Assembly: GCA_027214125.1 (NCBI GenBank)
Contig: JAPWHF010000004.1
Coordinates: 161,777-225,776, forward strand
Direction of reading: 5' to 3'
DNA from: Zoogloeaceae bacterium G21618-S1
GTDB taxonomy: Bacteria > Pseudomonadota > Gammaproteobacteria > Burkholderiales > Rhodocyclaceae
Length of the DNA: 64,000 bases
In this document: piece after piece, positions 116 to 14,255 of the stretch
How the letters are laid out: the number at the start of each line of letters is the position of its first letter
Numbering within the stretch: the first letter of the stretch is position 1
Translations under genes and position numbers: made by a program
Notes under the pieces: generated by a model
Database searches by the model: none
Told to the model about the DNA's origin: nothing
The model's input: the letters and a program-made list of their open reading frames with translations, nothing else

Positions 116-376
116 GGCGGTCTGCATGATGACGGGAATGTCGGCCAGCCGCCGGTCGGCCTTGATCCAGCGCAGCAGCTCCAGCCCGTCGATGCCCGGC
201 ATCATGCGATCGAGCACCACCAGATCAAACTGCGAATCGCCGCGACGCAGATACGCCCAGGCCGCCTCACCGCTCTCGGCCATCTGCAGCAAATAGCCGG
301 CGCCCTCGAGATACTCGCTGATGATGTCCAGATTGAATGGCTCATCATCAACCACAAGAATGCGGATTTGACTCAT
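23..376 (-). CDS. Response regulator receiver protein, 3' part lost at window edge
   Basis: This is the N-terminal half of a CheY-like receiver: RILVVDDE with the acidic pair near residues 10-11, the phospho-acceptor region FDLVVLDRMMPG near residues 50-60, and PVIMQTA at the switch-residue strand near residue 85. After that the frame runs into the homopolymer tract at the edge and codes only Pro/Gly, so the lysine strand (usually YLTKP) and any output domain are not visible. Its ATG overlaps the stop of the upstream kinase gene (ATGA at 373-376), indicating translational coupling, so it is very likely the cognate regulator of that kinase. The wording of its motifs resembles the receiver at 10209-11129. 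Real coding sequence can be trusted only from about 110 to 376. Confidence 0.75.
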   Translation of the reverse strand: MSQIRILVVDDEPFNLDIISEYLEGAGYLLQMAESGEAAWAYLRRGDSQFDLVVLDRMMPGIDGLELLRWIKADRRLADIPVIMQTAAGPPPPGGGGGAAGGHKDPTQARAAANHAR

Positions 377-3300
377 GGTTCCACGTGCTCCTTCACCAAA
401 CTTCTGTCGGCCGGCGAAAACGTCGGCAGAATGATCTCAAAGCAAGCCCCCCCGCCCGCGACGTTTCGGGCATGAATCTGACCGCCATGCGCGCTCAGGA
501 TTTCACGGCAGATGGCCAAGCCCAGACCAGTGCCACCGGCACCGGTTCGCGTGGCACTACTTTGCACGAATTTGTCGAACACGGCTTCAAGCTCCGCCTC
601 GGGTATGCCCACGCCTTGATCGATCACGCGCAGCACGACGGCATCACGCCCCCCAATGTCGTCGACGCGCCTACCACTGGGCAAGGTGTCCCGGCCCATT
701 TCCACAAAAATCTGCCCGCCCAAGGGCGAAAACTTGATGGCGTTGGACAACAAGTTGCGCACCACCTGACCGATGCGCAAGGCATCTCCCGCGACCGCCG
801 GTACCTCCGGCATCTGCGCCACCAACTCGATCCCGCGGGCCACTCGCAGCCCTTCGACTTCGTCGAGCACCTCGGCCACCACCGTGCTCAGCACCAAGGG
901 CTGGATGTCGAGCACCATGCGCCCGGCCTCCAGCTTGGACAAGTCGAGCAGGTTGTCGACCAGTCGCAGCAGCCGGTCTCCGCTGCTGCGAATACGCTGA
1001 AAATAGTCTTGCAGCTTCTCCGGCGGCGCGCTGAGCGCCTTGTCCTCACCCAGCCGCGCATAGCTCAACACCGCATGCATCGGTGAGCGCAACTCGTGCG
1101 ACATGTTGGCCAGGAAGCGCGACTTGGCTTCGTTGGCCCGCTCGGCCGCCTCCTTCGCGTCGATCAGGCTGGCCGTCTTTTCCGTCACCAGCTCGGCCAG
1201 GTGGTCGCGGTGCTGGCGCAAGGCCTCACGCGCTTTCTTTTCGTTTGAAATATCGATGCCAACACCGATGAAGCCCACGAGGTGGCCCTGATCCTCGATA
1301 CGCGGCTCACCCTTGATCATCAGCCAGGCATACCGCCCTGTTGCCTGACGCACTCGAAATTCCCCCTGGTAGGCCGCTTGCGTCCGGCGCACCTGCCGCC
1401 CCAGCTCTTTCACGGCGGCAAGGTCGTCCGGATGAACGAAGCGCAACCAGTCCACGCCCAAGGTTTCCACCGACGCCATACCTGTCAGCATCAGCCACGC
1501 GCGATTGGCATAGGTGATATTGAGCGCAGTGTCGGCCAGCCAGATCACCACGGGCGCGGCATCTGCCAGCAAACGGAATCGGGCCTCACTCTCGCGCAGC
1601 GCACGTTCCCGCGCCTTCAGTGCCGACACATTGCGCAGCACCACCAGCAAGCCGCCGGTACCCACAGGCGCCACCCGTGCCTCGTAATCCTGCATGGCTC
1701 CGTCGGAGTCTGGCGCCCGGTATTCCACACACTGCAGCTCGCCGCTGAACTGGGCTCGGCGCAGCGTTGGCACCACTTGGGTAAAACGCTTCTGCGAGAT
1801 GATTTCGTCCAGCGGACGACCCCGCGCGTCGTCCATATCCACGGTCAGCTGCGCCCCTTTCCGGGTGCGCACCGCGACCAGACGCAAATTGGCGTCGAAC
1901 TGCACCAGGATGTCAGGCATCGCTTCGATGATGGAGGCGTTGGTGGCGTGCGCCGCCGCCAACGCCTCCTCGGCCGCCTTGCGCTCCGAGATGTCTTCCA
2001 CCACGGTCCAGATCGCCGTGCCGCTATCGGCATCACGCATCACCGCACCGCTCAACAGTACCGGCACTTCGGTGCCGTCGGGGCGGACAAAGGCACGCTC
2101 GTATGGCGTCACCACGCCCTGATGCAGCGCATCAAGCGTCTTCTCACGATCCAGCGCATGCAAATGCTCCGGCGTCAGCGCGGCATACCGCATCCCCGGC
2201 AAAGCCTCCGCCTCGACACCAACAATCTTCGCAAATGCCTCATTGACCCGCACGATGCTGCCGTCAACCCGGACCATCGCCATGCCGAGCGGCGAGTTGC
2301 GGAACAGTGCGTCGAGCTCGGCCAGTGACGACTTGAGCGCCCGCTCCGTCCGACGCAAGGCGGTCACATCGGTGATCGTCACCAAAACCACCGGCTCACC
2401 CTCAAGCCCGGCAACGCCGACCTTGCTGATGATCGCGTCGTGCTCGTTGCCGTTGTCCTGCGTCAGATGGAACTCTTGCGAGCTCACCACGCCAGAGAGC
2501 GCCCGCTCGTCTTCCGCCAGGTGCCTGGCCGACTGCCCCGGCAAGACATCTTCGGTTCGCAAGCCCACGATGCGTTCGGCATCGCGCCCAAGAAACACCC
2601 CGGCGGCCTGATTGGCGAGTACGTAACGGTGATCAACCGACTTCACCAGCACCGGATGCGGCAGGAAATCGAGTACCCGCGCATAGAACTCGCGCGCCCG
2701 CTCCAGCGCCAGTTCCCGCTCGTGCAGAAGAGACACATCCGAAATCGCACCGGCCACCCGGGCCGGCCGGCCCATCGCATCCCACGCCGCTCGCCCGCGA
2801 ATCAGCAACTGGCGGTGTTCGCCATCGGCGCGCGGAACACAAATCGCCACCTCCAGCGGTTGCCGATGGCGCAGATGCCCGCGCAAGGCGAGCAACAACA
2901 CCCGTCGCTCCGCAGGTGGCAAACAATGCAGCACATCGCGCCAGCCGATCGGGCCCGGCCTTGGGCCTCCAAACAGCATGGCCTGCGCCCGCCCCGACAG
3001 ATACATCTCGGACCGGTCCGACGCCCACTCCCAGATCCCGTCGCTGGTTGCCGTCGCCGCCAGCGCAAAGCGCCGCTCGGACTCTTCCAGCGCGCCGCCG
3101 ATGCGCTCGGCCGATGCCAGGGCGCGATGTCGCCCCGATGCCAGATAGAAGGTGAGCAAGGCAAACGCCAGCGTCATCAACGCGCCAGCCGCGCGAACCG
3201 TCAGCCCAGCCACGCTATCGCCACGCTGCGCGACCGGGTAAAACACAAGACGCAACTGACGGCCGCCGACAACCAGGCGCCTCGACACACTGGCACCGGC

Positions 3301-4167
3301 AGGGGTTTCTTCAAGCGCGACGAGACGCACGGCGTCGTCGTCGCTTTCATCAAACAATTCCACCCGAACTCTGTCCGCCCAGTCCTTCGAGACCGAGGCG
3401 ATCCAGTTGCCATAGCGTATGCCAAGCACAACGACACCACGCACCAAATCGCCGTCGGGGACATCGCGCATCAAGTCTTTCGCCGGATCAAACACCGGCA
3501 AAACAAGGATGCCCGCAGGCGACGCCTCCCCGGCATCCTGGAGCGTAATCGCCCCGCTGAGCACCACATCGCCTCGCGTGATCGCGGCGTCAATCGCGGC
3601 GCGCCGGGTCGGATTCGAGGCCAGATCAAAGCCCAGGATTACCTCCAGCGTGCTGACCCGTGGCGCCGCAAACTGGGCCGGAAACGCCGCGCCTTCGGTG
3701 GAGCCCCGAATCGAGATGACCCGGTCGTAGGCGTAGAACATGAAGTCTTCCCAATCGGTCCGCCGATCGGCCGCGACACGCGGCGCGTACACCAGTCCCG
3801 CGGCGCCCATCTCGTTGAGCGGGCGCAACTCCGTGGTGGCAATGTAGCGCTCCCACTCAAACAGGCTCACCCGCTCAGAGGCGACAAACAGGCCAGCCGT
3901 GGCACGCATGTGGGCGGTGTAGTAATTCAACCGCTCCAGCAAGGACGAGGTCACGCGGTTGACGGCGTGATCGGTCTCTTGTGTCGCGCGCGTAGACTCC
4001 AATCGATCAACATAGTGCGCGCCGACCCAGGTCAAGACCACACCCAGCAACAAGACCACCAACGCGAGGGGAAGCGCCCGACGCAAGGACGCGACGCGGG
4101 CAGCTTGCGTATCAGCGTTCAGGCGTTTATGGGGCGGACTCAGCGATGCGGGGCCGGGGGACGACAT
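373..4167 (-). CDS. CHASE-domain, multi-PAS sensor histidine kinase
   Basis: This is a membrane sensor kinase of 1264 residues. A first transmembrane helix lies near residues 30-50. A periplasmic CHASE-type domain follows, with the characteristic GFDLASNPTRR and LVLPVF stretches around residues 170-230, then a second helix near 325-345. After that come about five PAS-like segments up to residue ~980. The HisKA dimerisation domain has the phospho-accepting His in MSHELRSPMHA near residue 1022, followed by a HATPase with the GVGIPE and GTGLGLAI boxes. No receiver is fused; the regulator is the overlapping downstream gene (ATGA). The start is the only reasonable ATG, but its ribosome site is poor. 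The gene lies 58 bp downstream of the DUF2892 gene on the same strand, so read-through from the pump operon is possible. The ligand is unknown; CHASE domains usually bind small extracellular molecules. Confidence 0.85.
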   Translation of the reverse strand: MSSPGPASLSPPHKRLNADTQAARVASLRRALPLALVVLLLGVVLTWVGAHYVDRLESTRATQETDHAVNRVTSSLLERLNYYTAHMRATAGLFVASERVSLFEWERYIATTELRPLNEMGAAGLVYAPRVAADRRTDWEDFMFYAYDRVISIRGSTEGAAFPAQFAAPRVSTLEVILGFDLASNPTRRAAIDAAITRGDVVLSGAITLQDAGEASPAGILVLPVFDPAKDLMRDVPDGDLVRGVVVLGIRYGNWIASVSKDWADRVRVELFDESDDDAVRLVALEETPAGASVSRRLVVGGRQLRLVFYPVAQRGDSVAGLTVRAAGALMTLAFALLTFYLASGRHRALASAERIGGALEESERRFALAATATSDGIWEWASDRSEMYLSGRAQAMLFGGPRPGPIGWRDVLHCLPPAERRVLLLALRGHLRHRQPLEVAICVPRADGEHRQLLIRGRAAWDAMGRPARVAGAISDVSLLHERELALERAREFYARVLDFLPHPVLVKSVDHRYVLANQAAGVFLGRDAERIVGLRTEDVLPGQSARHLAEDERALSGVVSSQEFHLTQDNGNEHDAIISKVGVAGLEGEPVVLVTITDVTALRRTERALKSSLAELDALFRNSPLGMAMVRVDGSIVRVNEAFAKIVGVEAEALPGMRYAALTPEHLHALDREKTLDALHQGVVTPYERAFVRPDGTEVPVLLSGAVMRDADSGTAIWTVVEDISERKAAEEALAAAHATNASIIEAMPDILVQFDANLRLVAVRTRKGAQLTVDMDDARGRPLDEIISQKRFTQVVPTLRRAQFSGELQCVEYRAPDSDGAMQDYEARVAPVGTGGLLVVLRNVSALKARERALRESEARFRLLADAAPVVIWLADTALNITYANRAWLMLTGMASVETLGVDWLRFVHPDDLAAVKELGRQVRRTQAAYQGEFRVRQATGRYAWLMIKGEPRIEDQGHLVGFIGVGIDISNEKKAREALRQHRDHLAELVTEKTASLIDAKEAAERANEAKSRFLANMSHELRSPMHAVLSYARLGEDKALSAPPEKLQDYFQRIRSSGDRLLRLVDNLLDLSKLEAGRMVLDIQPLVLSTVVAEVLDEVEGLRVARGIELVAQMPEVPAVAGDALRIGQVVRNLLSNAIKFSPLGGQIFVEMGRDTLPSGRRVDDIGGRDAVVLRVIDQGVGIPEAELEAVFDKFVQSSATRTGAGGTGLGLAICREILSAHGGQIHARNVAGGGACFEIILPTFSPADRSLVKEHVEP

Positions 4168-4225: not shown

Positions 4226-4450
4226 TCAACCGCAGCCGACGCTGTCTTTCACGCCGAACTTGCGCAGAATGGTCTCCAGCGGACAGAGCCCGGTGAAGCC
4301 GCTCTGGAACAGATTGGCGCCGACAAACGCCGTAAACCACAGGAAATTGACGTTCACAAACAGGGGCGACGCCTCGACACCCAGCGCGAGCGAAATCAAG
4401 ACAAAGGCGCCGGCGAAAATACGGACGAACTGGTTGACGGTGAGATTCAT
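4226..4450 (-). CDS. YgaP-type DUF2892 small membrane protein
   Basis: A 74-residue protein with two hydrophobic segments (about 8-24 and 32-48), followed by the DUF2892 signature GLCPLETILRKFGV. The family includes the membrane anchor of the E. coli rhodanese YgaP and stand-alone copies that travel with sulfide-oxidation genes. Here there is no fused rhodanese domain. It has a Cys within the signature and another near the C-terminus (VGCG). Its ATG overlaps the stop of the RND permease gene by 4 bp, so it is the last gene of that operon. The operon also encodes a sulfide:quinone oxidoreductase, which supports a role in sulfur or persulfide handling. The biochemical function of the stand-alone form is not established. 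Confidence 0.8.
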   Translation of the reverse strand: MNLTVNQFVRIFAGAFVLISLALGVEASPLFVNVNFLWFTAFVGANLFQSGFTGLCPLETILRKFGVKDSVGCG

Positions 4451-7400
4451 GAGGCGGGTCCTTCCGATTGGAGTTCTGCGACCTTGTTGCGCATGGCCGC
4501 GAAATAAAGCACCGGGATCACCACCAGCGTCAACACGGTGGACACCAGGATGCCAAAAATGAGGCTGATCGCCAGACCGTTGAAGATCGGGTCGTCAAGA
4601 ATGAAGGCCGCGCCGATCATGGCCGCCAAGGCGGTCAGACCAATCGGCTTGGCACGCACCGCGGCCGAGGTGATCACCGCCTCGGCAAAGGGCACGCCCG
4701 CGCGCACCTGGTGGTTGATGAAGTCGACCAGCAGAATCGAGTTGCGCACGATGATGCCGGCCAGCGCGATCATGCCGATCATCGAGGTGGCGGTGAATTG
4801 CGCGCCGAGCAGCGCATGCCCCGGCATCACCCCGATGATGGTCAGCGGGATCGGCGCCATGATGATCAGCGGCACCAGATAGCGGCGGAACTGCGCCACC
4901 ACCAGCAGGTAGATCAGGATCAGGCCGACCGCGTAGGCCGCGCCCATGTCGCGAAAGGTCTCGTACGTAACCTGCCACTCGCCATCCCATTTCACGCTGT
5001 AGCCAGCGTAGGGGTCGTGCGGCTGCCGGATGAACCATTCGTCCAACACACCGGCCAGGCGCTCGCCCACCAGCGGCATGTCCTTGATCTGGCTGCGGAT
5101 GTCGAACATGCCGTAGAGCGGTGAATCGAGCGCACCGGCCATATCGGCGGTCACATACACCACCGGCAGCAAGTCCTTGTGGTAGACCACCTGGTCGCGC
5201 TCGGTGGGGTGCACGCTGACCAGCTCTGACACCGGCACCAGCGTGCCGTCTTGCGCCCGCAGCTTGAGCTGCAGCAGATGCGCCACCGTCGACTGCTGCG
5301 AGGGCGGCAACTGGATGCGCACCGGAATCTCGTATTTGTTGTCGCCGCCATGCAGCGGCGTCACGCTCTCGCCGGCCAGGCCGAGGCGCATCACCTCGAC
5401 GATCTGCGCCTGCGCCACGCCCATCAGCGCCGCCTTGGCCTGATTGACCCGCAACACCAGCTTGGGTGCGGTCTCGTCGACGGTGTCGTCGGCGCCGACG
5501 ATGTCGGGCGTACGATCGAAGACATCGCGCACCTGCTGCGCCACCGCCAACTGACCGGTGTAGTCCGGTCCATACACCTCGGCCACGATGGGCGAGAGTA
5601 CCGGCGGGCCCGGCGGCACTTCCACCACCTTGGCATTGCCGCCGTGCGCTCGAGCAATGGCCGTCACTGCCTCACGCACCGCGCCGGCCACCTCGTGACT
5701 GCTGCGGTCGCGCTTGTGCTTGTCGACCAGATTGATCTGCAGATCGCCTTGCTCGGGTGCGCTGCGCAGATAGTACTGACGCACCAGACCATTGAAGTTG
5801 ATCGGGCTGGCGGTGCCGGCGTAGGCCTGCCAGTCGGTCACTTCGGCCGTCTTGCCCACCGCTTCGCCGATCTCCAGCAAGACCTGTGCGGTGCGCTCCA
5901 GCGGCGTGCCGACCGGCATGTCGAGCACCACCTGGAATTCGGACTTGTTGTCCAGCGGCAACATCTTGAGCACCACCAGCTTGACCGCCGCCAGCGCCAC
6001 CGAGCCGGCGATCAGCGCGATCACCAGCAGCCACAGCAGGCTGCGGTTGCGCCGGCCGCGGCGGGCGTCGATCAACGGGCCGATCACGGCGCGGAAGAAG
6101 CCGGTCAGCCGTCGCGTCATGCGGTCTTCGCCAGCATGCGCGTGGCCATCGGTCGACTTGAGCAGTTTTTGCGCCAGCCACGGGGTGACCACAAAAGCCA
6201 CCAGCAGCGAGATGAACATGCCCATCGAGGCGTTGATCGGGATCGGGCTCATGTAGGGCCCCATCAGGCCGCTGACGAAAGCCATCGGCAGGAGCGCAGC
6301 GATCACCGTAAAGGTGGCCAGGATGGTCGGCCCGCCGACCTCGTCCACCGCCTTGGGAATCAGTTGCCACAAGGGCTTGTCGGGATCGAGCAGATGCCAG
6401 CGGTGGATGTTTTCGACCACCACGATGGCGTCGTCCACCAGAATGCCGATCGAGAAAATGAGCGCGAACAGGCTGACCCGATTGAGCGTGAAGCCCCAGG
6501 CCCAAGAGGCAAACAGCGTCGCCGCCAGGGTCAGCGTCACCGCCAGGCCGACGATGACCGCCTCGCGCCAGCCCAACGTGAGCAGCACCAGCAAGACCAC
6601 CGCGCTGGTGGCGAACACCAGCTTGCCAATCAGCTTGTTGGCCTTGTCGTTGGCGGTGTCGCCGTAGTTTCGGGTGACGGTGAGATTGACGCCATCGGGG
6701 ATGACCGTACCTTTCAGTGTCTCGACACGGGCGATCAGCTGGTTGGCTACATCAGAGGCGTTGGCGCCGGGCTTTTTCGACACCGACAGCGTCACCGCGG
6801 GCGACACCCCGGCGGAGTCGATGCCGCGCTCGGCCGCCGCCGCGCCGGCGCCGAACCACACATAGCGCGAGGGCTGATCCGGCCCGTTGACCACCTCGGC
6901 CACATCCGACAGATACACCGGCTTGCCGTCGGCCACACCCACGACAAGCGCACGCACATCCTGCGCCGAGCTGATGTAGGTGCCGGTCTGCACCAGCACC
7001 TCCTGGTTGTCGGCCACCAAGCGCCCCGCCGACTGCGAGGCGTTGGCCACTTGCAGCGCGGCTTTCAGGTCCGCCGCGGTCACCCCGTGGGCATTCATCC
7101 GCGCCGGGTCCATCAGCACCCGCAGCACATGGCCGGGGCCGCCGATCGTCACCACGTCGCGTGTACCGGGGATGCGCTTGAGGTCGATCTCGATGGCGCG
7201 CGCCACCTGCTGCATGTCGAAGCCGGCGCGTTCGGGGTCCTCGGTCCACAGCGTGATGCCAACAATCGGCACATCGTCGATGCCCTTGGGTTTGACGATG
7301 GGTTCGAGCACGCCCAATTCGGGGCGCAACCAGTCGCGATGCGAATCGAGCGTGTCGTAGAGGCGCACCAGCGCCTCCTGGTTCGGCACACCGACCTCGA

Positions 7401-7713
7401 ACTGCACGGTGAGCACCGACATGTCCGGCTGCGACACCGAATACACATGCTCGACCCCCGCCATGCGCGAGAGCACCTGCTCGGCCGGACGCGATACCAG
7501 CGACTCGACCTCCCGCGCCGACGCCCCCGGAAAAGGTACGAAGACGTTGGCCATGGTCACATCGATCTGCGGCTCTTCTTCCTTGGGGGTAATGAAGGTC
7601 GCGAACACCCCCATCAGGAACAGCACCAGCGCCAGCAGCGGTGTCAGCGCATTGCGCTGAAAGCCGCTGGCGATCTTTCCGGACAGGCCGAGGGCGGGGG
7701 TGTCATTGCTCAC
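4447..7713 (-). CDS. RND efflux transporter permease (AcrB/HAE-type superfamily)
   Basis: The inner-membrane proton-driven pump of a tripartite efflux system, 1088 residues, within the usual RND size. It shows the N-terminal helix, the porter-domain opening FPGASAREVESLVSRPAEQ, and the TM4 motif SIGILVDDAIVVVENIHR with the paired Asp that carries protons in AcrB. A second repeat covers the C-terminal half. In TM10 the position of the AcrB relay Lys reads Arg (GIIVRNSILLVDF). It lies 10 bp after the SQR gene and overlaps the DUF2892 gene by 4 bp; the adaptor is encoded upstream. No outer-membrane channel gene is present, so a TolC-like protein elsewhere is expected. The substrate is unknown. 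The Asp pair argues against a CusA-type metal pump, and the SQR linkage points to a sulfur-related stress. Confidence 0.9.
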   Translation of the reverse strand: MSNDTPALGLSGKIASGFQRNALTPLLALVLFLMGVFATFITPKEEEPQIDVTMANVFVPFPGASAREVESLVSRPAEQVLSRMAGVEHVYSVSQPDMSVLTVQFEVGVPNQEALVRLYDTLDSHRDWLRPELGVLEPIVKPKGIDDVPIVGITLWTEDPERAGFDMQQVARAIEIDLKRIPGTRDVVTIGGPGHVLRVLMDPARMNAHGVTAADLKAALQVANASQSAGRLVADNQEVLVQTGTYISSAQDVRALVVGVADGKPVYLSDVAEVVNGPDQPSRYVWFGAGAAAAERGIDSAGVSPAVTLSVSKKPGANASDVANQLIARVETLKGTVIPDGVNLTVTRNYGDTANDKANKLIGKLVFATSAVVLLVLLTLGWREAVIVGLAVTLTLAATLFASWAWGFTLNRVSLFALIFSIGILVDDAIVVVENIHRWHLLDPDKPLWQLIPKAVDEVGGPTILATFTVIAALLPMAFVSGLMGPYMSPIPINASMGMFISLLVAFVVTPWLAQKLLKSTDGHAHAGEDRMTRRLTGFFRAVIGPLIDARRGRRNRSLLWLLVIALIAGSVALAAVKLVVLKMLPLDNKSEFQVVLDMPVGTPLERTAQVLLEIGEAVGKTAEVTDWQAYAGTASPINFNGLVRQYYLRSAPEQGDLQINLVDKHKRDRSSHEVAGAVREAVTAIARAHGGNAKVVEVPPGPPVLSPIVAEVYGPDYTGQLAVAQQVRDVFDRTPDIVGADDTVDETAPKLVLRVNQAKAALMGVAQAQIVEVMRLGLAGESVTPLHGGDNKYEIPVRIQLPPSQQSTVAHLLQLKLRAQDGTLVPVSELVSVHPTERDQVVYHKDLLPVVYVTADMAGALDSPLYGMFDIRSQIKDMPLVGERLAGVLDEWFIRQPHDPYAGYSVKWDGEWQVTYETFRDMGAAYAVGLILIYLLVVAQFRRYLVPLIIMAPIPLTIIGVMPGHALLGAQFTATSMIGMIALAGIIVRNSILLVDFINHQVRAGVPFAEAVITSAAVRAKPIGLTALAAMIGAAFILDDPIFNGLAISLIFGILVSTVLTLVVIPVLYFAAMRNKVAELQSEGPAS

Positions 7714-7723
7714 GTGATGCGAT

Positions 7724-8998
7724 CTACCGATTCTTGAGTTTCATGATGCCGAGCGCTTCGAGCACGATCTTTTCGTAAACCGGCTCGGTCGTGCCCTTCT
7801 TCATCTTGCGCAAGAAGTATTTCTCGAAGCCGACCTTGGCCAGATGCACCCAGCGCCCTTCCGAATACCAGTTCACATTCCGCGGAGGGATCTGCGGCAG
7901 CGCCACAAAGGCCGCGCCGGTGTCACCGAAATCGGCCAGACAGATGGCGTTCCAGGTGGCACGCTCTTCGGGCGCCTTGCCATCGAGCACGGCGCGGATA
8001 TTCTTGGCGGTGGCGGTGACCATCGACTCGATCATGTAGCCCGTTTTGGGCACCCCGGTCGGAACAGGTGTCGCCTCCACCGGCGGAATCGCCACGCACA
8101 CGCCAATCCCGTAGATATTGGGATAGCGCGGATTGCGCTGGAATTCATCGATCAGTACGAAACCACGCGGGTTGACCAAGCCCTCGACCCCGCGCACCGC
8201 GTCGATACCGCGAAAGGCCGGCAGCATCATCGAGTACTTGAAGGGCAGCTCGTGCTGGCGTTTCGGTTTGCCATCGTCGTCATGCTCGGTCACGAACATG
8301 GTGCCGGCCTCGACCTTGTCCACCTTGGCGTTACAGATCCACTTGATGTGGCGGTCGCGGAACATCGACTCGATCATGCCCTTCGAGTCGCCCACGCCGC
8401 CCAGGCCGAGGTGGCCAATATAGGGTTCGGAGGTGACGAAGGTCATCGGCACGCGGTCGCGCAGCTTGCGCTTGCGCAGATCGGTTTCCATGATGCGGGC
8501 AAACTCGTAGGCCGGACCGAAGCAGGACGCACCCTGTACCGCACCGACCACGATCGGGCCGGGGTCATCGACAAAGGCCTGCCAGTTCGACTCAGCACCC
8601 ACCGCATGATCGACATGGCAAATCGACTGCGTGAAGCCCTCCGGCCCGAGGCCGGGAATTTCATCAAAGGCCAGTTGCGGGCCGGTCGCGAGCACCAGCA
8701 CGTCGTACTCGAGACTGCTGCCGTCGGCCAGGGTCAGGCTGTTGTCCGAGGCGTGCACCTGGGTCACTGCCTGCTCGACGAAATCGATCTTTTTCTTCGC
8801 CAGCAAGGGCGCGATTTCAAGCTCGATGTCGTCGCGCTTTCGCCAGTTCACCGCCACCCACGGGTTGGACGGCGTGAAGTGGAAGCGGCCGGTATTGGCC
8901 ACCACCGTAATCCGGTCTTCCGCGCGTGCCAGCGCTTTCATTTCGTAGGCCATCGGCAGTCCGCCGAGCCCCGCTCCGACAATCACTATGTGCGCCAT
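7724..8998 (-). CDS. sqr: Sulfide:quinone oxidoreductase, type I-like
   Basis: A 424-residue flavoprotein of the FAD/NAD(P) disulfide reductase superfamily that would oxidise H2S to zero-valent sulfur and pass electrons to quinone at the membrane. The N-terminal FAD-binding motif VIVGAGLGGLP starts at residue 4 and a second motif LVLATGP lies near 101. Three cysteines sit where type I SQR has its catalytic set: C127 (QSICHVDH), C159 (GASCFGPAYE) and C353 (AICLADFGD). These match the 128/160/356 numbering I recall for the Acidithiobacillus enzyme. The C-terminus is amphipathic and Lys-rich, suited to membrane association. The start was chosen at the ATG at 8998 because GGAGGAGA precedes it. 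Being between the adaptor and permease genes is unusual. NADH dehydrogenase-like paralogues lack this cysteine triad. Confidence 0.87.
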   Translation of the reverse strand: MAHIVIVGAGLGGLPMAYEMKALARAEDRITVVANTGRFHFTPSNPWVAVNWRKRDDIELEIAPLLAKKKIDFVEQAVTQVHASDNSLTLADGSSLEYDVLVLATGPQLAFDEIPGLGPEGFTQSICHVDHAVGAESNWQAFVDDPGPIVVGAVQGASCFGPAYEFARIMETDLRKRKLRDRVPMTFVTSEPYIGHLGLGGVGDSKGMIESMFRDRHIKWICNAKVDKVEAGTMFVTEHDDDGKPKRQHELPFKYSMMLPAFRGIDAVRGVEGLVNPRGFVLIDEFQRNPRYPNIYGIGVCVAIPPVEATPVPTGVPKTGYMIESMVTATAKNIRAVLDGKAPEERATWNAICLADFGDTGAAFVALPQIPPRNVNWYSEGRWVHLAKVGFEKYFLRKMKKGTTEPVYEKIVLEALGIMKLKNR

Positions 8999-9088
8999 CG
9001 TCTCTCCTCCAAGCCATGAGCACTGGTGCATCCGATCCGGGCGCCGGCCTTGCCGAGGTCCCGTCCAGACACGTTCTGCGAGTCCGCG

Positions 9089-10141
9089 CTATTGTTGTGA
9101 AGCGTTTTGTTGGCGCAACAGGCTCGCTTTGACGGGATCCAGAGCCACCCTGTCTCCCACATTCAATCCGGCCAGAATCTCGATCCGGCCGTCCGGCAAG
9201 CGCTCGCCGGGACGTATCTGGCGCAGGCGAAAGCCCGCGTCGGTCTGGACATACACCGCCGTCACCTCACCACGGCGCAGCACGGCGGAGGCCGGCATGG
9301 TCAAGCGCGGCGTGGTGCCGACTTGCAGCACCAAGCGGGCAAACTGGCCCGGCACGACACCGACCACCGTCGCCGGCAACACGGCGCGCACTTCCATGGT
9401 GTGGGTTTTCGGGTCAGCCGACGGCACCAGCATCACCGCGCTCGCTGCCACAGCGCCGTCGCGCCCGGTCAGCACGATATCGGCGGCCAGCGGCGCACCC
9501 GACACGCCTTGCGCTACCGACTGCGGCAACTGGGCCACGACGCGCAACTGGCGGGGGTCATACAGGGTCAGCAGGGGTCGGCCGGGCTGGGCCATTTCAC
9601 CCACTTCGGCATGGCGCTCGGCTATGACACCGCTGATCGGCGCCGCAATACGGGTGAAATCGCGCACGGTGGCCGCCTGCCCGCGACCGGCCTGGGCGGC
9701 GCTCAGCCCCGCGGCGGCCACATTCATCGCCGCCACGGCCTGATCGACGACAGCCTGACTGACAAAGCCCTTTTCCTTCAACGACACATTGCGCCGCCAT
9801 TCGGCCTGCGCATTCACATACCTGGCTTGAGCCTGAGCGACCGACGCTGCCGCGCCGGCGACCGCCTGATTGGCTTCGCTGGCATCGATGCGCATCAACA
9901 ACTGGCCCGCGCTCACGCGGTCGCCTGCATCGGCCGCCACCTCAATGATGCGGCCTTGCACCTGGGCAGCGATCGTGGCGCTATTGACCGCCTCGACCAC
10001 GCCTTCGGCCACATGGCGCACACCGGTAGGCGCGCGCTCGACCTGCGCGGTTTCAATCTCGGCGGCAATGGCGACCGGCGCTGCCACGAGAGCAGCCACA
10101 CACAGCGCGGCAAAGAAGAAGGGAGGGGTCAGGGATTTCAC
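9089..10141 (-). CDS. RND efflux periplasmic adaptor (membrane fusion protein)
   Basis: An adaptor of 350 residues with a Sec signal peptide (KSLTPPFFF then an Ala/Val-rich core ending near AIAAE) and no lipobox. The biotinyl-lipoyl-like half-motifs are visible as VNSATIAAQVQGRIIEV and AGDRVSAGQLLMRID. They flank a coiled-coil hairpin rich in Ala and Gln (about residues 80-145), followed by the beta-barrel part with RIAAPISGVIAERHAEVG. It would join the RND permease to an outer-membrane channel. The first plausible start compatible with the signal peptide is GTG at 10141. It has no Shine-Dalgarno sequence and lies almost at the predicted transcription start, so leaderless translation is likely. 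It is the first gene of the pump-SQR operon. Confidence 0.85.
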   Translation of the reverse strand: MKSLTPPFFFAALCVAALVAAPVAIAAEIETAQVERAPTGVRHVAEGVVEAVNSATIAAQVQGRIIEVAADAGDRVSAGQLLMRIDASEANQAVAGAAASVAQAQARYVNAQAEWRRNVSLKEKGFVSQAVVDQAVAAMNVAAAGLSAAQAGRGQAATVRDFTRIAAPISGVIAERHAEVGEMAQPGRPLLTLYDPRQLRVVAQLPQSVAQGVSGAPLAADIVLTGRDGAVAASAVMLVPSADPKTHTMEVRAVLPATVVGVVPGQFARLVLQVGTTPRLTMPASAVLRRGEVTAVYVQTDAGFRLRQIRPGERLPDGRIEILAGLNVGDRVALDPVKASLLRQQNASQQ

Positions 10142-10176
10142 GCATATTAGTTTATTCTTATATGCGGAAGTGTCAA
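10142..10176 (-). promoter_or_regulatory. Promoter with palindromic operator before the adaptor-SQR-RND operon
   Basis: On the minus strand a perfect -35 hexamer TTGACA lies at 10171-10176. A candidate -10, TAAACT, lies at 10149-10154 after 16 bp. Between -35 and the GTG is the AT-rich inverted repeat CGCATAT / ATATGCG (arms 10160-10166 and 10141-10147, 12-nt spacer). It would cover the -10 and the transcription start, a classic repressor position. The AT-rich character is reminiscent of ArsR/SmtB-family sites such as those of BigR/SqrR persulfide sensors, but no regulator of that family is encoded in this window. Confidence 0.5.
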
Positions 10177-10208: not shown

Positions 10209-11129
10209 TCAAGCCGGGCAAACCACCGCGGGCGCGCAACTTACCGTCACCTCGCGCCCGCCATCGCGATACTCGACCGACAGAAAACCGAGCCGGCAGG
10301 CCAGCGAGATCCCGCGACCGTTCACCTGGGTCGCTCGCTCGGCCGACAGCACCATGAACGGCTGCCAGTCAAAACCCTCACCCTCATCGCGAATGGTGAT
10401 GCTGATCGACTCGACGGCGCGTCGAACCTCCACCCACACCCGGCGGTCGCGATAGGCAGGCAAGCGCATCCGGCGGTCGATTTCATCGCGCCAACGGCCG
10501 CTCTGCACCAAAGCCGCCTTCGTCTCATAGCCGATGCCAAGATTGCCGTGTTCAACCGCATTGCGCAGCAGCTCGGACAAGCCGATGGCTGCCAGATCCG
10601 GCGTAGCGCACAAGACCGCCAGTCCGTGGGCAAGCGCACTGGCCTCGTCCACACTGCGCAAGCGAAACTGCGCGGCGTCAAGCAAACCCACCGTTCGGCG
10701 CAGTTCGCGCGCCTCCAGCGACAACTGAGCGCGCTCGGCATGATTTGCCAACGCCGCGCGCACCAGCGTGAGCAGCGAGTTCGAGCGATACGGCTTGGTG
10801 AGGTAGTAATACGCCCCCGCCGCAATGCCTTCGGCCACGGTATCCGGATCGGCCACAGCGGTCTGGATGATCACCGGCGTCAGCGCCTGTTGCGGCAAGG
10901 CCCGCATCTCGCGCAGCACTTCAAAGCCATCGGGCGGCGCCATGCGCTGATCCAGCACGACCAGATCGAAGCCTGCCGGGCAGGCGTTCATTTGCGCCAG
11001 CGCGCTCCGTCCGCAGTCTGCCGTACTCACGTCGTAGGCCTGACCGGACAAGGCATTGGCCATGAGTTCGAGGTTGAAAGCCTCGTCATCGACCAGCAAA
11101 ATCCGCGGTCGTGCTGCCGCGGCACTCAT
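10209..11129 (-). CDS. Receiver domain fused to a GHKL (RsbW-like) ATPase
   Basis: A 306-residue protein. Residues ~8-125 form a receiver: ILLVDDE, phospho-Asp in VVLDQRM, PVIIQTA, and YYLTKPY for the conserved Lys. The C-terminal ~150 residues form an HATPase_c-like fold with the N-box LLRNAVEHGNLG and the G1-like DEGEGFDW, but there is no HisKA domain. This arrangement resembles anti-sigma/RsbW-type serine kinases or signal modulators rather than a DNA-binding response regulator. The start at ATG 11129 overlaps the stop of the kinase gene (ATGA), and the longer in-frame alternative has no support. It is probably the phospho-partner of the adjacent CHASE kinase. The downstream target is not visible; no sigma factor or STAS protein is encoded nearby. 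Confidence 0.8.
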   Translation of the reverse strand: MSAAAARPRILLVDDEAFNLELMANALSGQAYDVSTADCGRSALAQMNACPAGFDLVVLDQRMAPPDGFEVLREMRALPQQALTPVIIQTAVADPDTVAEGIAAGAYYYLTKPYRSNSLLTLVRAALANHAERAQLSLEARELRRTVGLLDAAQFRLRSVDEASALAHGLAVLCATPDLAAIGLSELLRNAVEHGNLGIGYETKAALVQSGRWRDEIDRRMRLPAYRDRRVWVEVRRAVESISITIRDEGEGFDWQPFMVLSAERATQVNGRGISLACRLGFLSVEYRDGGREVTVSCAPAVVCPA

Positions 11130-13768
11130 GCCTTGACCCCCGCCACCACACCGACCTGGGCACACGGCAACTGCACCCGAAACACCGCGCCGCCCCCCTC
11201 GCCGTTGGCCGCCTCGATGCGCCCGCCAAAGGCTTCCACAAACTGGCGGCAGATCGACAGTCCCAGTCCGCTACCCGGAGGCGAATCCGGCAACTCGGGA
11301 TGGCCGCGAACAAAGGCCTCGAAGAGCCGCTCGGCCCCGCCGTCGGGCAGCCCGATGCCCCGGTCAAGCACCTCAAGTTCCATCACCTCGCCATGCATCG
11401 GATCGGCCGGCAGCGTCACACCGGCGCGCACCGCGAGGCGCAAAACGACCGGCGTGCCTACCGGTGAAAACTTGATCGCATTGGTGACCAGATTCATCAC
11501 CACCTGCTGCAACCGCAAGCCGTCGGCACGTACCGGGCACAATCGATCGGCCAGCTCGAGATGGAGGTGCATGTCCTTCGCCTGAGCAAGCGCCTCGCAC
11601 TCATCGACGACGTCACGGCACACCATCGCCCAATCGACCGGCGCAAGCGCCAGCTTTCCGCGCGTCGACTCGGTGCGCGCCACATCCAGCAGATCCGACA
11701 CCATGCCAAGCAGACGCTGGCCGCTGAGTTCGATCCGCTGCAAGCAGTGGGTACGTCGCGCTTCATTCACCTCTGGCTTCAGCCCCATTTCCGCAAAGCC
11801 CAGAATGGCATGCAGGGGCGTGCGCAATTCATGTGACAAGGTGGCCAGAAACTCACTCTTGCCGCGGCTGGCGCGGTCGGCAGCATCCTTGGCCAACAGC
11901 AGATCAATTGTCTGCTCCGCCACCAGGTCGGCGAGGTTGTCACGATGACGCGTCAGCTCCTGCTCGGCGCGCCTGAGTTCACTCAGATTGCGCACGATGC
12001 ACAGAAACCCGCCGGTCTCCACCCGCACCACCCGCCCCTCGAAACTTTGCGCCTCGCCGCTCAGGGTGTTGAGCGTGTATTCCAGATGCTCCACGCCGCC
12101 ATGCGCGGCCACCTTGCGGCAGGCCTCGTCCAGCGCGGCCGACACGCCCGCGGGGAGGACTTCCACACTGCGCTTGCCGAGGAAGTCTTCCGGCGCCATC
12201 GCCAGATCGCGCTCGTTGCCCGCGTGATAGCCCACGTAACGACAGTCTTCATCAAACTCGAAGAGCAGATCCGGCAGCGCCGCGAGCGCGCTGGCATGTC
12301 GCGCCGCCAGGCGTGCTTGCGCCTGTGCCGCCAGTTGCTCGGCGGTGATGTCGGCAATGAAGCCGGCCACCCCAAGCACTGCGCCGGTCGTATCCCGCCG
12401 GGCTTTGCCGCGGGTGCGCAACCAGCGCGTGAGGCCATCGGGCAGCACGATGCGATAGCGCATGTCGAGCGGCGCGTCGAAATCGACATGCTGCGCAATC
12501 GCCGCATCGACCGCGGCACGATCCTGCGGATGCAAGCGGCTGCGCCAGACGGCCAGCAACTGGCTGGCCGGGTGATGTTCAATCACCCCGAGAATTTTCA
12601 AGGCGCGATCCGAAGCCAGCATGCCGCCGCGCGCCGGGTCCCAGTCCCACCAGCCTTCCTGGGCCCCTTCGAGTGCCAGACGCAGACGCTGTTCTTTCTC
12701 GCGCAAGACCATGGTCATGTGCCTGGCGAGCCGGTCCGCACGGCGCCGCGTCGCCCCCAGCATGCCGACCAGCACCACCAGCAGCACGCCGACGGCGGCC
12801 ACCCCTGCGGCGACAACATGCGCCTGCCACCAGGGAATCAAGGCCTCGTAAGCCGGCGTTGAACTCAGTCTGAAATACCAGGCGTGACCGCCAAAATGAA
12901 GCGGCCGCTCGGCGGTAAACCGGGCCGAGGGCTCATCGACACCACGCACCGCCAGACGCTCGGCGAGATCGGCATCACGCGAGTCGTAGAGTTGCACCGC
13001 CAGCAAGCGACCCCGGCCGATCAGCACCGACTCCAGAAATTCGGCGGCACGGAATTCGGCGCTGATCACGCCGATGGCCACCGCCTCACGCTGCGCCTCC
13101 TCGAGGGGTGGCGCAGGCGTGGCATACACCGGCATCAACAGCGAAAACGCGGGCTCGCCCTCGCCCGAATCGCCGCGCACGGCCGTGTGCGCCGACAAGG
13201 CCACATCACCCACGCGCCAGGCATACTCGGCCGCTACGCGACGTACCGGGTCCGACAACAGATCAAAGCCCAGCACCCGCGACAGATCCATCGGCGCCGG
13301 CGCCACCCGCACCACGGGCAGATACACGGGCCGCTCGCCGGCGGGCCGGATATCGAAATACTCCCCGACGGCCCCACTCACCCACGCGTCGAGCTGATCG
13401 CGTCGTTCCGGCGAAATACGCCAGCCCAGCGACAGGCTGGAAAAGCCCGGAAACACACGCGCCAACTTGAGCCCATCAACATAGGCCTCCCAGTCGCCGG
13501 TGGGCACCGTCACCGCCACGCGAACCAAACCTGCCGCGCCGCGCTGAACTTCGGCAAAGCGCGCCAGACGCGCCTCCGCCGTCGCCACCACCGCATCGGC
13601 ATCGTCGGCAAACTGCTGCCGGGCGGTCTCCAGCACCCGCGCCTGCATCCCCACCCAGCTCGCCAGCGCGAGGACGACCAGGCCGACCGCCACCCACGCC
13701 GCCACCCAGCCGCCCTTGCGCGGTACGGCGGGAGAAACGTCGGACGGAAGGTCTGAGGGTGTCGTCAC
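11126..13768 (-). CDS. CHASE-PAS sensor histidine kinase
   Basis: A membrane sensor kinase of about 880 residues. A first transmembrane helix lies at residues ~20-45 (WVAAWVAVGLVVLALASW). A periplasmic CHASE domain follows, with GFDLLSDPVRR and FSLLMPVY, then a second helix near residues 310-335. Two PAS-like modules come next (RLALEGAQEGWWDWDP and a later module with a YVGYHAGNE stretch). The HisKA phospho-His is in LSHELRTPLHAILG near residue 645, and the HATPase has LDRGIGLPD and GSGLGLSI. GTG at 13768, preceded by AGG, is preferred; a TTG 30 bp upstream is possible but lacks a ribosome site. It has the same layout as the kinase at 373-4167 and is translationally coupled to its receiver-ATPase partner. 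The CbiX-like gene ends only 48 bp upstream. Confidence 0.83.
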   Translation of the reverse strand: MTTPSDLPSDVSPAVPRKGGWVAAWVAVGLVVLALASWVGMQARVLETARQQFADDADAVVATAEARLARFAEVQRGAAGLVRVAVTVPTGDWEAYVDGLKLARVFPGFSSLSLGWRISPERRDQLDAWVSGAVGEYFDIRPAGERPVYLPVVRVAPAPMDLSRVLGFDLLSDPVRRVAAEYAWRVGDVALSAHTAVRGDSGEGEPAFSLLMPVYATPAPPLEEAQREAVAIGVISAEFRAAEFLESVLIGRGRLLAVQLYDSRDADLAERLAVRGVDEPSARFTAERPLHFGGHAWYFRLSSTPAYEALIPWWQAHVVAAGVAAVGVLLVVLVGMLGATRRRADRLARHMTMVLREKEQRLRLALEGAQEGWWDWDPARGGMLASDRALKILGVIEHHPASQLLAVWRSRLHPQDRAAVDAAIAQHVDFDAPLDMRYRIVLPDGLTRWLRTRGKARRDTTGAVLGVAGFIADITAEQLAAQAQARLAARHASALAALPDLLFEFDEDCRYVGYHAGNERDLAMAPEDFLGKRSVEVLPAGVSAALDEACRKVAAHGGVEHLEYTLNTLSGEAQSFEGRVVRVETGGFLCIVRNLSELRRAEQELTRHRDNLADLVAEQTIDLLLAKDAADRASRGKSEFLATLSHELRTPLHAILGFAEMGLKPEVNEARRTHCLQRIELSGQRLLGMVSDLLDVARTESTRGKLALAPVDWAMVCRDVVDECEALAQAKDMHLHLELADRLCPVRADGLRLQQVVMNLVTNAIKFSPVGTPVVLRLAVRAGVTLPADPMHGEVMELEVLDRGIGLPDGGAERLFEAFVRGHPELPDSPPGSGLGLSICRQFVEAFGGRIEAANGEGGGAVFRVQLPCAQVGVVAGVKA

Positions 13769-13816
13769 AAGAACCTGTCGGGTGTCGATGTTGAGCAATA
13801 AAAAATCACCCCAACA

Positions 13817-14185
13817 TCATGCAACCCCCAAGGCATAATCTGCAAGTGCCTCGACCACGCCGTCGGACTCGCCCGCCGCAAGCACCTGCGTGATCGCTAG
13901 CGCCGGATGACGCGCTGCTGCCTCGGCCACGAGCAGGGGCACATCGCGCTTCAAATGCCCGCCCTGCGCCAGAAAGACCGGCACCACGGTGATGTGCTCG
14001 ACGCCCGCCGCCGCAAGCGCATCGACAGCCTCGTTCAGCGTCGGTGTCAGGAACTCCATGAAGGCCACACCCACCGGTGTGTCGGGCGAACGCGCGGCAA
14101 TACGCGCGGCCACGCGCTTCATGGGACCGGCCCATTCCGGGTCGCGCGCGCCATGTCCGAAAAGTACAATGCCCTTTGCCGCCAT
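13817..14185 (-). CDS. CbiX/SirB-like sirohydrochlorin chelatase domain protein
   Basis: A 122-residue single-domain member of the class II chelatase family. The strand IVLFGHGARDPEW carries the first metal-binding His (about residue 10). The second His is in LAQGGHLKRDVP near residue 73, followed by Leu-rich helices. Short CbiX/SirB proteins insert Co or Fe into sirohydrochlorin for cobalamin or sirohaem synthesis; which metal applies here cannot be told. The start was chosen at ATG 14185 with AAGGAG a few bases upstream; an in-frame GTG 51 bp earlier looks like leader. It is the first gene of the minus-strand block that continues with the CHASE kinase. It is divergent from the M23 peptidase, with about 70 bp between the starts. 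Confidence 0.8.
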   Translation of the reverse strand: MAAKGIVLFGHGARDPEWAGPMKRVAARIAARSPDTPVGVAFMEFLTPTLNEAVDALAAAGVEHITVVPVFLAQGGHLKRDVPLLVAEAAARHPALAITQVLAAGESDGVVEALADYALGVA

Positions 14186-14255
14186 CTGTTTCTCCTTGTG
14201 GGTCGTGCCTCCGTCGCGGCGTGTGTCGCCAGGCACAAGTCGTTATCATGCGCCC

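Follow-up and report, generated by a model that had tools for sequence, protein, structure and literature searches.

The closest described counterpart of the system reported here is an operon of Azospira suillum PS (Dsui_3440-3443), which was described in 2017 as highly expressed with sulfide and was flagged by Bar-seq (PMC5358917). A second described system is the bigR operon of Xylella and Agrobacterium, which comprises BigR, Blh, and TauE and places an ArsR regulator with a sulfur-reactive cysteine pair over sulfide detoxification; BigR itself is described as sensing sulfide through cysteine persulfidation (PMC5823870). For the family of SqrR-like repressors (SqrR, SoxR, and sHdrR), resistance-nodulation-division (RND) pumps have already been named among the likely targets (PMC12423496). 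Here, we describe an operon in a 64,000-nucleotide stretch of DNA from Zoogloeaceae bacterium G21618-S1 (contig JAPWHF010000004.1; hereafter, the window) that has the same four gene kinds in the same order as the Azospira operon, the Dsui genes being compared by their annotation in the available part of PMC5358917. In order of transcription, all on the minus strand, these genes encode an RND periplasmic adaptor (membrane fusion protein, MFP), a sulfide:quinone oxidoreductase (SQR), an RND permease, and a small DUF2892 transmembrane protein. Taking the evidence below jointly, we favour, with moderate confidence, the reading that this operon specifies a sulfane-sulfur-inducible tripartite efflux pump with an SQR attached, which would belong to a repressor/operator regulon and export reactive sulfur.

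An earlier interpretation made from the letters alone (the sequence-only reading) had proposed that the pump may export a sulfur species or a compound linked to sulfide stress, with the SQR feeding or protecting it, and had called an RND system with its own SQR not a standard arrangement. The latter statement has to be tempered, as an Azospira operon of the same make-up was described in 2017 (PMC5358917); the SQR-pump operon is thus real but already in print, and what is new is the predicted two-operon regulon and its breadth. Neither an operator nor an ArsR regulator, a TolC partner, or a distribution is described in the available part of the Azospira paper, and the available parts of PMC10451225 and PMC12423496 on the SqrR/SoxR/sHdrR family describe no pump operator, TolC link, or SQR-pump operon. 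The accessible text of PMC5823870 mentions no RND pump for the bigR operon, and the window pump differs further in that its candidate regulator gene is unlinked. Nothing on an SQR-pump operon stands in the available parts of PMC10128140, PMC6504805, and PMC11267869, and in the open-licence literature we recognised no account of such an operator, of a link to TolC, or of a pump family free of cysteine, a coverage that leaves most subscription papers outside.

The regulon is predicted from a palindrome, ATATAAGAATAAACTAATAT, which ends 2 bp upstream of the adaptor start codon and overlaps the putative -10 box. In the consensus of 35 operator-bearing operons with pumps that are >=66% identical, a TTGa -35 element and a TATACT -10 element stand at a fixed distance, with the -10 element inside the palindrome and the start codon a few bases downstream. 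With the promoter in this position, the pump mRNA may be leaderless or near-leaderless, and a repressor on the operator would block RNA polymerase. We scanned the 250 bp that precede the first gene, plus 60 bp, for sites that agree with ATATTAG-N6-CTAATAT at 11 or more of its 14 specified positions, with genes called by codon usage, so that start sites and hence operator distances are approximate (longest-ORF calling was unsuitable in GC-rich loci, where shadow ORFs won). Upstream of operons for pumps of the window type (family A, bounded by a gap between 55% and 47% identity among the matches listed), 79 of 116 carried such a site, a count that is partly circular because the consensus was learned from pump operons; the rate was 0.9% among 2320 dinucleotide shuffles and 0.2% among 497 stretches upstream of other genes from these loci. 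Near-copies (L004-L006, L008, L018, and L064) were dropped before the operator counts and before the SQR and DUF2892 counts given below, and the 116-operon set also excludes operons without a called adaptor, with <150 bp, or with N. In the window and its relatives, the operator is as common at pump loci without an SQR (16/20) as at those with one (14/17); it is rare before pumps of a second family, B (2/26), and among SQR genes not accompanied by a family-A pump only 4/54 score >=11. On these counts, the predicted operator tracks the pump, not the SQR. With regard to described sites, neither the SqrR site ATTC-N8-GAAT as given in PMC9774250 nor the HlyU site as given in PMC4330345 matches the pump operator, which does contain the NolR consensus (A/T)TTAG-N9-A(T/A) as given in PMC8960804.

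The same kind of site precedes a second operon. In the genome that carries the window, the exact pattern ATWAG-N6-CTWAT occurs at only four places (reversed control pattern: one place), the first being the window operon and the second starting 33 bp upstream of a PCMT-rhodanese-TolC operon, whose TolC-family protein matches PF02321 (1.2e-59). Across 30 genomes, own included, that were read of the 57 with a PCMT match, 24 of the 27 with a close two-cysteine ArsR protein, and 0 of the 3 without one, have the operator ahead of PCMT-(rhodanese)-TolC, starting 28-89 bp upstream; this set is not circular, because the consensus had been fixed on pump operons beforehand. The three ArsR-bearing genomes that lack the PCMT operator (G046, G047, and G050) have no rhodanese match there; G027 has no rhodanese match either, yet its PCMT operator is present. 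In Azospira oryzae DSM 21223 (L008/L135), whose SQR, permease, and DUF2892 protein are 78%, 69%, and 75-76% identical to those of the window, the pump operator scores 11/14 and the PCMT operator 14/14. An operator common to both operons makes it very likely that the pump and TolC operons form one predicted regulon of sulfane-sulfur type. The operon of the window itself holds no gene for an outer-membrane factor.

Further sites are of more varied kind. The third place in the own genome precedes a Tll0287-like gene, and such genes with the operator pattern were observed in the own genome and in the congeners G003 and G001 (L259 6041-6622, L325 1515-2096, and L335 921-1502, the last by reading); the fourth lies in a divergon between psd and TetR-MFP-ABC genes (psd and ABC named by reading). 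Weaker evidence comes from the congener G002, where a site stands 81 bp before a pair of genes for an MBL-fold (persulfide-dioxygenase-like) protein and TauE, a likeness to the bigR operon, and from G004, where a site lies between rhodanese and peroxiredoxin-SLAC1 genes. In G052, which lacks a close ArsR protein, a gene for an MBL-fold (persulfide-dioxygenase-like) protein heads the adaptor-SQR-permease-DUF2892 series (L149 4437-11236), and two operator-like sites precede it.

A candidate for the repressor is P0005, a two-cysteine ArsR protein of 109 amino acids (aa) encoded at G000:C22:266005 in the own genome, where its gene adjoins a rhodanese gene. Its nearest solved proteins are BigR (3pqj, 1.3e-17), followed by YgaV, HlyU, the ArsR set 6o8k-o, which we take to be SqrR, and NolR; its cysteine pair aligns with cysteines of BigR, YgaV, and HlyU. 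The own genome thus encodes, by sequence comparison, a BigR/SqrR-like two-cysteine ArsR protein, which would bind the operator. Within the near set, a close ArsR protein (E < 1e-30) is found in 32 of 36 pump-bearing versus 5 of 25 pump-less genomes, and among distant pump genomes in 54 of 60. Where a close ArsR gene (>=65% identical) lies directly upstream of the adaptor gene, the operator is present in 7/7 cases, while it is present in 0/10 cases with a divergent ArsR gene near the pump.

Family A is widespread. Counting the own genome, 36 of the 61 near-set genomes carry it (38 matches, from which G044 at 35% and G051 at 44% were excluded), as do at least 103 of the 369 class genomes (a hand count); DNA was read for 60 of the 102 class genomes with a family-A pump other than the own genome. 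The pairing of SQR and pump on which the sequence-only reading had been built recurs, as 26 of 80 SQR loci have a >50% identical pump within the fetched flanks, usually in the gene order of the window. An SQR gene on the same strand within 6.5 kb accompanies 17 of the 38 near pump loci, meaning those of the window and its relatives (among these, the SQR in L124 is a distant relative at 29% and that in L129 lies 4.3 kb away), by contrast with 0 of 60 distant loci; a DUF2892 gene within 2.5 kb accompanies 34/38 near and 4/60 distant loci. DUF2892 therefore accompanies the pump mainly near the window lineage, and the SQR is an optional extra. What the sequence-only reading had said of a link between the pump and sulfide stress is strengthened by the conserved layout, by the sulfide-induced Azospira operon (PMC5358917), and by the operator shared with the rhodanese-TolC operon. 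A central part for the SQR, as that reading had it, is not supported, given that 21 of 38 near loci and all 60 distant loci do without a same-strand SQR and that the operator follows the pump.

Such patchiness of the SQR could also mean that a housekeeping RND pump received its SQR by chance insertion and shares nothing but a promoter with it, which we consider very improbable. On a tree of 91 SQR rows, 36 of them pump-linked, linkage to the pump takes 11 parsimony changes, at least five of them on well-supported branches, versus a mean of 28.6 after shuffling. Moreover, gene orders differ among loci, with the SQR gene before the adaptor gene in L027 and after the DUF2892 gene in L014, and a second RND family (~40-44%) also occurs near an SQR in L067, L069, L077, L083, and L147.

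The SQR of the window aligns at full length with the solved SQR 3sz0 (residues 12-434 of P0001), and Cys127, Cys159, and Cys353, recomputed here at the positions that the sequence-only reading gave, align with cysteines of that protein, which is presumably the Acidithiobacillus enzyme. By sequence, it has what characterises an SQR of the Acidithiobacillus type, namely full length and three redox cysteines, and its activity is predicted on that basis. The own genome encodes one close SQR plus two others at 27-28% identity, one pump at E <= 1e-100 together with six further full-length ACR_tran genes, and two DUF2892 genes.

The pump proteins are poor in cysteine. The permease has none, and 106 of 120 family-A rows are likewise free of it (10 have one and 4 two), whereas 26 family-B rows have 3.7 on average and the six other RND proteins of the own genome have 1-5; 115 of 120 adaptor rows have no cysteine past residue 40 (near-copies are retained in the family-A and family-B rows). 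A cysteine-poor pump suits exposure to persulfides; the absence of cysteine alone is no proof of a sulfur substrate. The TM4 Asp-Asp pair is kept in all 120 family-A rows. The proton relay of AcrB further uses a TM10 Lys and a TM11 Arg..Thr. Matching by regular expression, family A departs from this, with Arg at the TM10 place in 119 rows (no match in one) and, at the TM11 place, Lys..Thr in 99, the AcrB-like Arg..Thr in only 6, and no match in 15; charge is retained at these relay positions despite the Lys/Arg swaps.

Family models bear on two other accounts of the substrate. The pump might export small toxic organic compounds of sulfidic places (thiols, disulfides, organosulfur compounds, or other hydrophobic poisons), with sulfide or persulfide merely the cue and the SQR a separate detoxification step, which we regard as unlikely, if the most serious rival. 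The best NCBIfam score of the permease, 437 bits, is to the multidrug-type RND_permease_2 and would fit such a role, as would the equal frequency of the operator with and without an SQR; that score is below the model cut-off of 1250, none of the 16 listed NCBIfam models reaches its cut-off with the permease, and the near-absence of cysteine and the operator common with rhodanese-TolC point to sulfur chemistry, neither being proof. A role in removing metals, or metal-sulfide complexes formed under sulfide, appears improbable to us. The authors of the Azospira study suggested metal sulfides, and genes or proteins of metal efflux increased under sulfide in their work (PMC5358917); against this, the permease reaches 240 bits with the CusA/CzcA model TIGR00914, below the cut-off of 701.45, and the nearest solved relative of the candidate regulator, BigR, is described as a sulfide sensor (PMC5823870).

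Besides the partial circularity of the operator count and the limited weight of missing cysteines, several observations weigh against a sulfane-sulfur-inducible pump regulon. In Azospira, strains deleted for sqr or for the whole four-gene set oxidised sulfide with perchlorate at an unchanged rate, according to the available part of PMC5358917. Of the 116 pump operons, 37 score <11/14, although two of these low scorers (L159 and L192) have a perfect site beyond the scanned stretch. Across seven Denitromonas-like genomes, the exact pattern occurs at 34 places versus 15 for the reversed control, and three other genomes have one place versus 11; the chance rate of the bare pattern is about two places per genome in the genus. 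Single sites such as that before the MBL-TauE pair of G002 may therefore be due to chance, because the pattern only modestly exceeds its control. Among the neighbourhoods inspected, which were 11 of 35 exact-pattern places plus four PCMT sites, hits without an evident sulfur gene were those in L323, L327, L328 (within a gene), L330, and L332. As for the regulator, 66 of 86 operons with a close ArsR protein have the operator, versus 1 of 10 without (Fisher 6e-5), a value that overstates independence because only seven independent pairs on the pump tree differ in ArsR (about 3.4 agree and 0 disagree, p ~0.25). A close ArsR gene lies ~3 kb from the pump in L203 and L212, yet no operator was found there, and the region upstream of the ArsR gene itself scores <11 at 28 loci out of 30, the other two (L311 and L318) reaching 11.

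The one-strand layout of the operon, with gaps of 90 and 10 bp and a 4-bp overlap, was reproduced on recomputation; the features of the window are collected in the table. The adaptor gene has a GTG start at 10141 and, by reading, an N terminus like a signal peptide, and the SQR ORF has an alternative upstream ATG at 9031. The window genome is Denitromonas-like, its SQR being 96-97% identical to those of D. ohlonensis, D. iodatirespirans, and D. halophila (L004-L006).

Features of the window around the SQR-pump operon
Feature	Position	Strand	Basis or remark
RND periplasmic adaptor (MFP)	9089-10141	minus	TIGR01730 RND_mfp 166 bits, cut-off 94.9; PF16576, PF13437
SQR, 424 aa	7724-8998	minus	phmmer 1e-160 to 3sz0
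RND permease, 1088 aa	4447-7713	minus	PF00873 (ACR_tran) 3.8e-148, 495.5 bits, gathering 28
DUF2892/YgaP-like_TM transmembrane protein, 74 aa	4226-4450	minus	PF11127 3e-13, 50.1 bits, cut-off 25.3
Predicted operator ATATAAGAATAAACTAATAT	10144-10163	minus	13/14 specified positions of ATATTAG-N6-CTAATAT
Putative promoter	10149-10176	minus	TTGACA 10171-10176, 16-bp spacer, TAAACT 10149-10154 within operator
CHASE-PAS histidine kinases and response regulators	373-4167 and 10209-13798	minus	both flanks of the operon
Response regulator after CHASE kinase, shortened	23-376	minus	long G/C run at ~70-112
CbiX-like gene	13817-14236	minus	by reading
Part of lower GC content	~34000-64000		GC drops from ~0.64 to 0.55-0.61

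Close to the pump, response regulators of the flanking cluster were seen at 20 loci and kinases at 18 (both counts include the own locus and near-copies), and these genes may provide a second control input. The response regulator cut short by the long G/C run appears to owe its length to an error of sequencing or assembly; its counterpart in the relative L004 is intact, with 299 aa. An upstream gene of ~100 aa was considered as a regulator and rejected, as its cluster (24 loci, own and near-copies included) reads as CbiX-like rather than ArsR. Likewise set aside as evidence were the LysR, AI-2E, PhoH, and Bcp genes downstream of distant pumps and the rhodanese-grxC-secB-gpsA genes beside some pumps, both of which look like household neighbours (all gene names by reading). 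At the distant pump loci (L154-L213), which lack an SQR, a LysR gene was seen by reading in 25/60, a DsrE2-like gene (PF13686) in 6/60, and a 300-aa protein with no Pfam match in 8/60. Finally, the low-GC part of the window may have been acquired differently from the rest.

The genes, the operator, its recurrence on the pump and TolC operons, and the family of the regulator, all established from sequence, suggest the following course for a sulfane-sulfur-inducible pump. At rest, the BigR/SqrR-type protein P0005 would sit on ATATTAG-N6-CTAATAT over the -10 box and keep the promoter shut. When sulfide is oxidised to persulfide or polysulfide, the two cysteines of the repressor would react and the repressor would leave the DNA; sulfide induction as such has been published for the relative Azospira only (PMC5358917). 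Derepression would yield the adaptor-SQR-permease-DUF2892 mRNA together with that of the PCMT-rhodanese-TolC operon elsewhere, which would supply the outer-membrane channel. The SQR would pass electrons from sulfide to quinone, with zero-valent sulfur as its product, and the pump would take reactive sulfur, be it polysulfide, zero-valent sulfur, or a sulfur adduct, out of the periplasm or inner membrane and release it outside. We infer the binding of the repressor to the operator, persulfide as the signal, the pairing with TolC, and, with the greatest reserve, the substrate, for which reactive sulfur is our best guess.

A bolder version, which we hold to be possible but doubtful, is that of a dedicated exporter of zero-valent sulfur (S0), in which polysulfide or S0 from the SQR would pass through the cysteine-free pump and the co-regulated TolC, and extracellular sulfur globules would be the pumped product. 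For Chlorobaculum, how S0 crosses the outer membrane is called unknown in the available part of PMC12285230; if true, such an exporter would be one answer to that question, and pumps without an SQR would export sulfur from other sources.

Most work on RND-TolC pumps concerns drug export, and it is often unclear what they transport in nature and which cues they answer to. The predicted regulon would make an orphan RND pump part of an inducible tripartite system controlled by a repressor of sulfane-sulfur-sensing type, and a recurring operator links a nearly cysteine-free pump family to this type of repressor and to one particular TolC operon. The finding thus bears on whether bacteria pump out reactive sulfur and on how zero-valent sulfur may leave cells.

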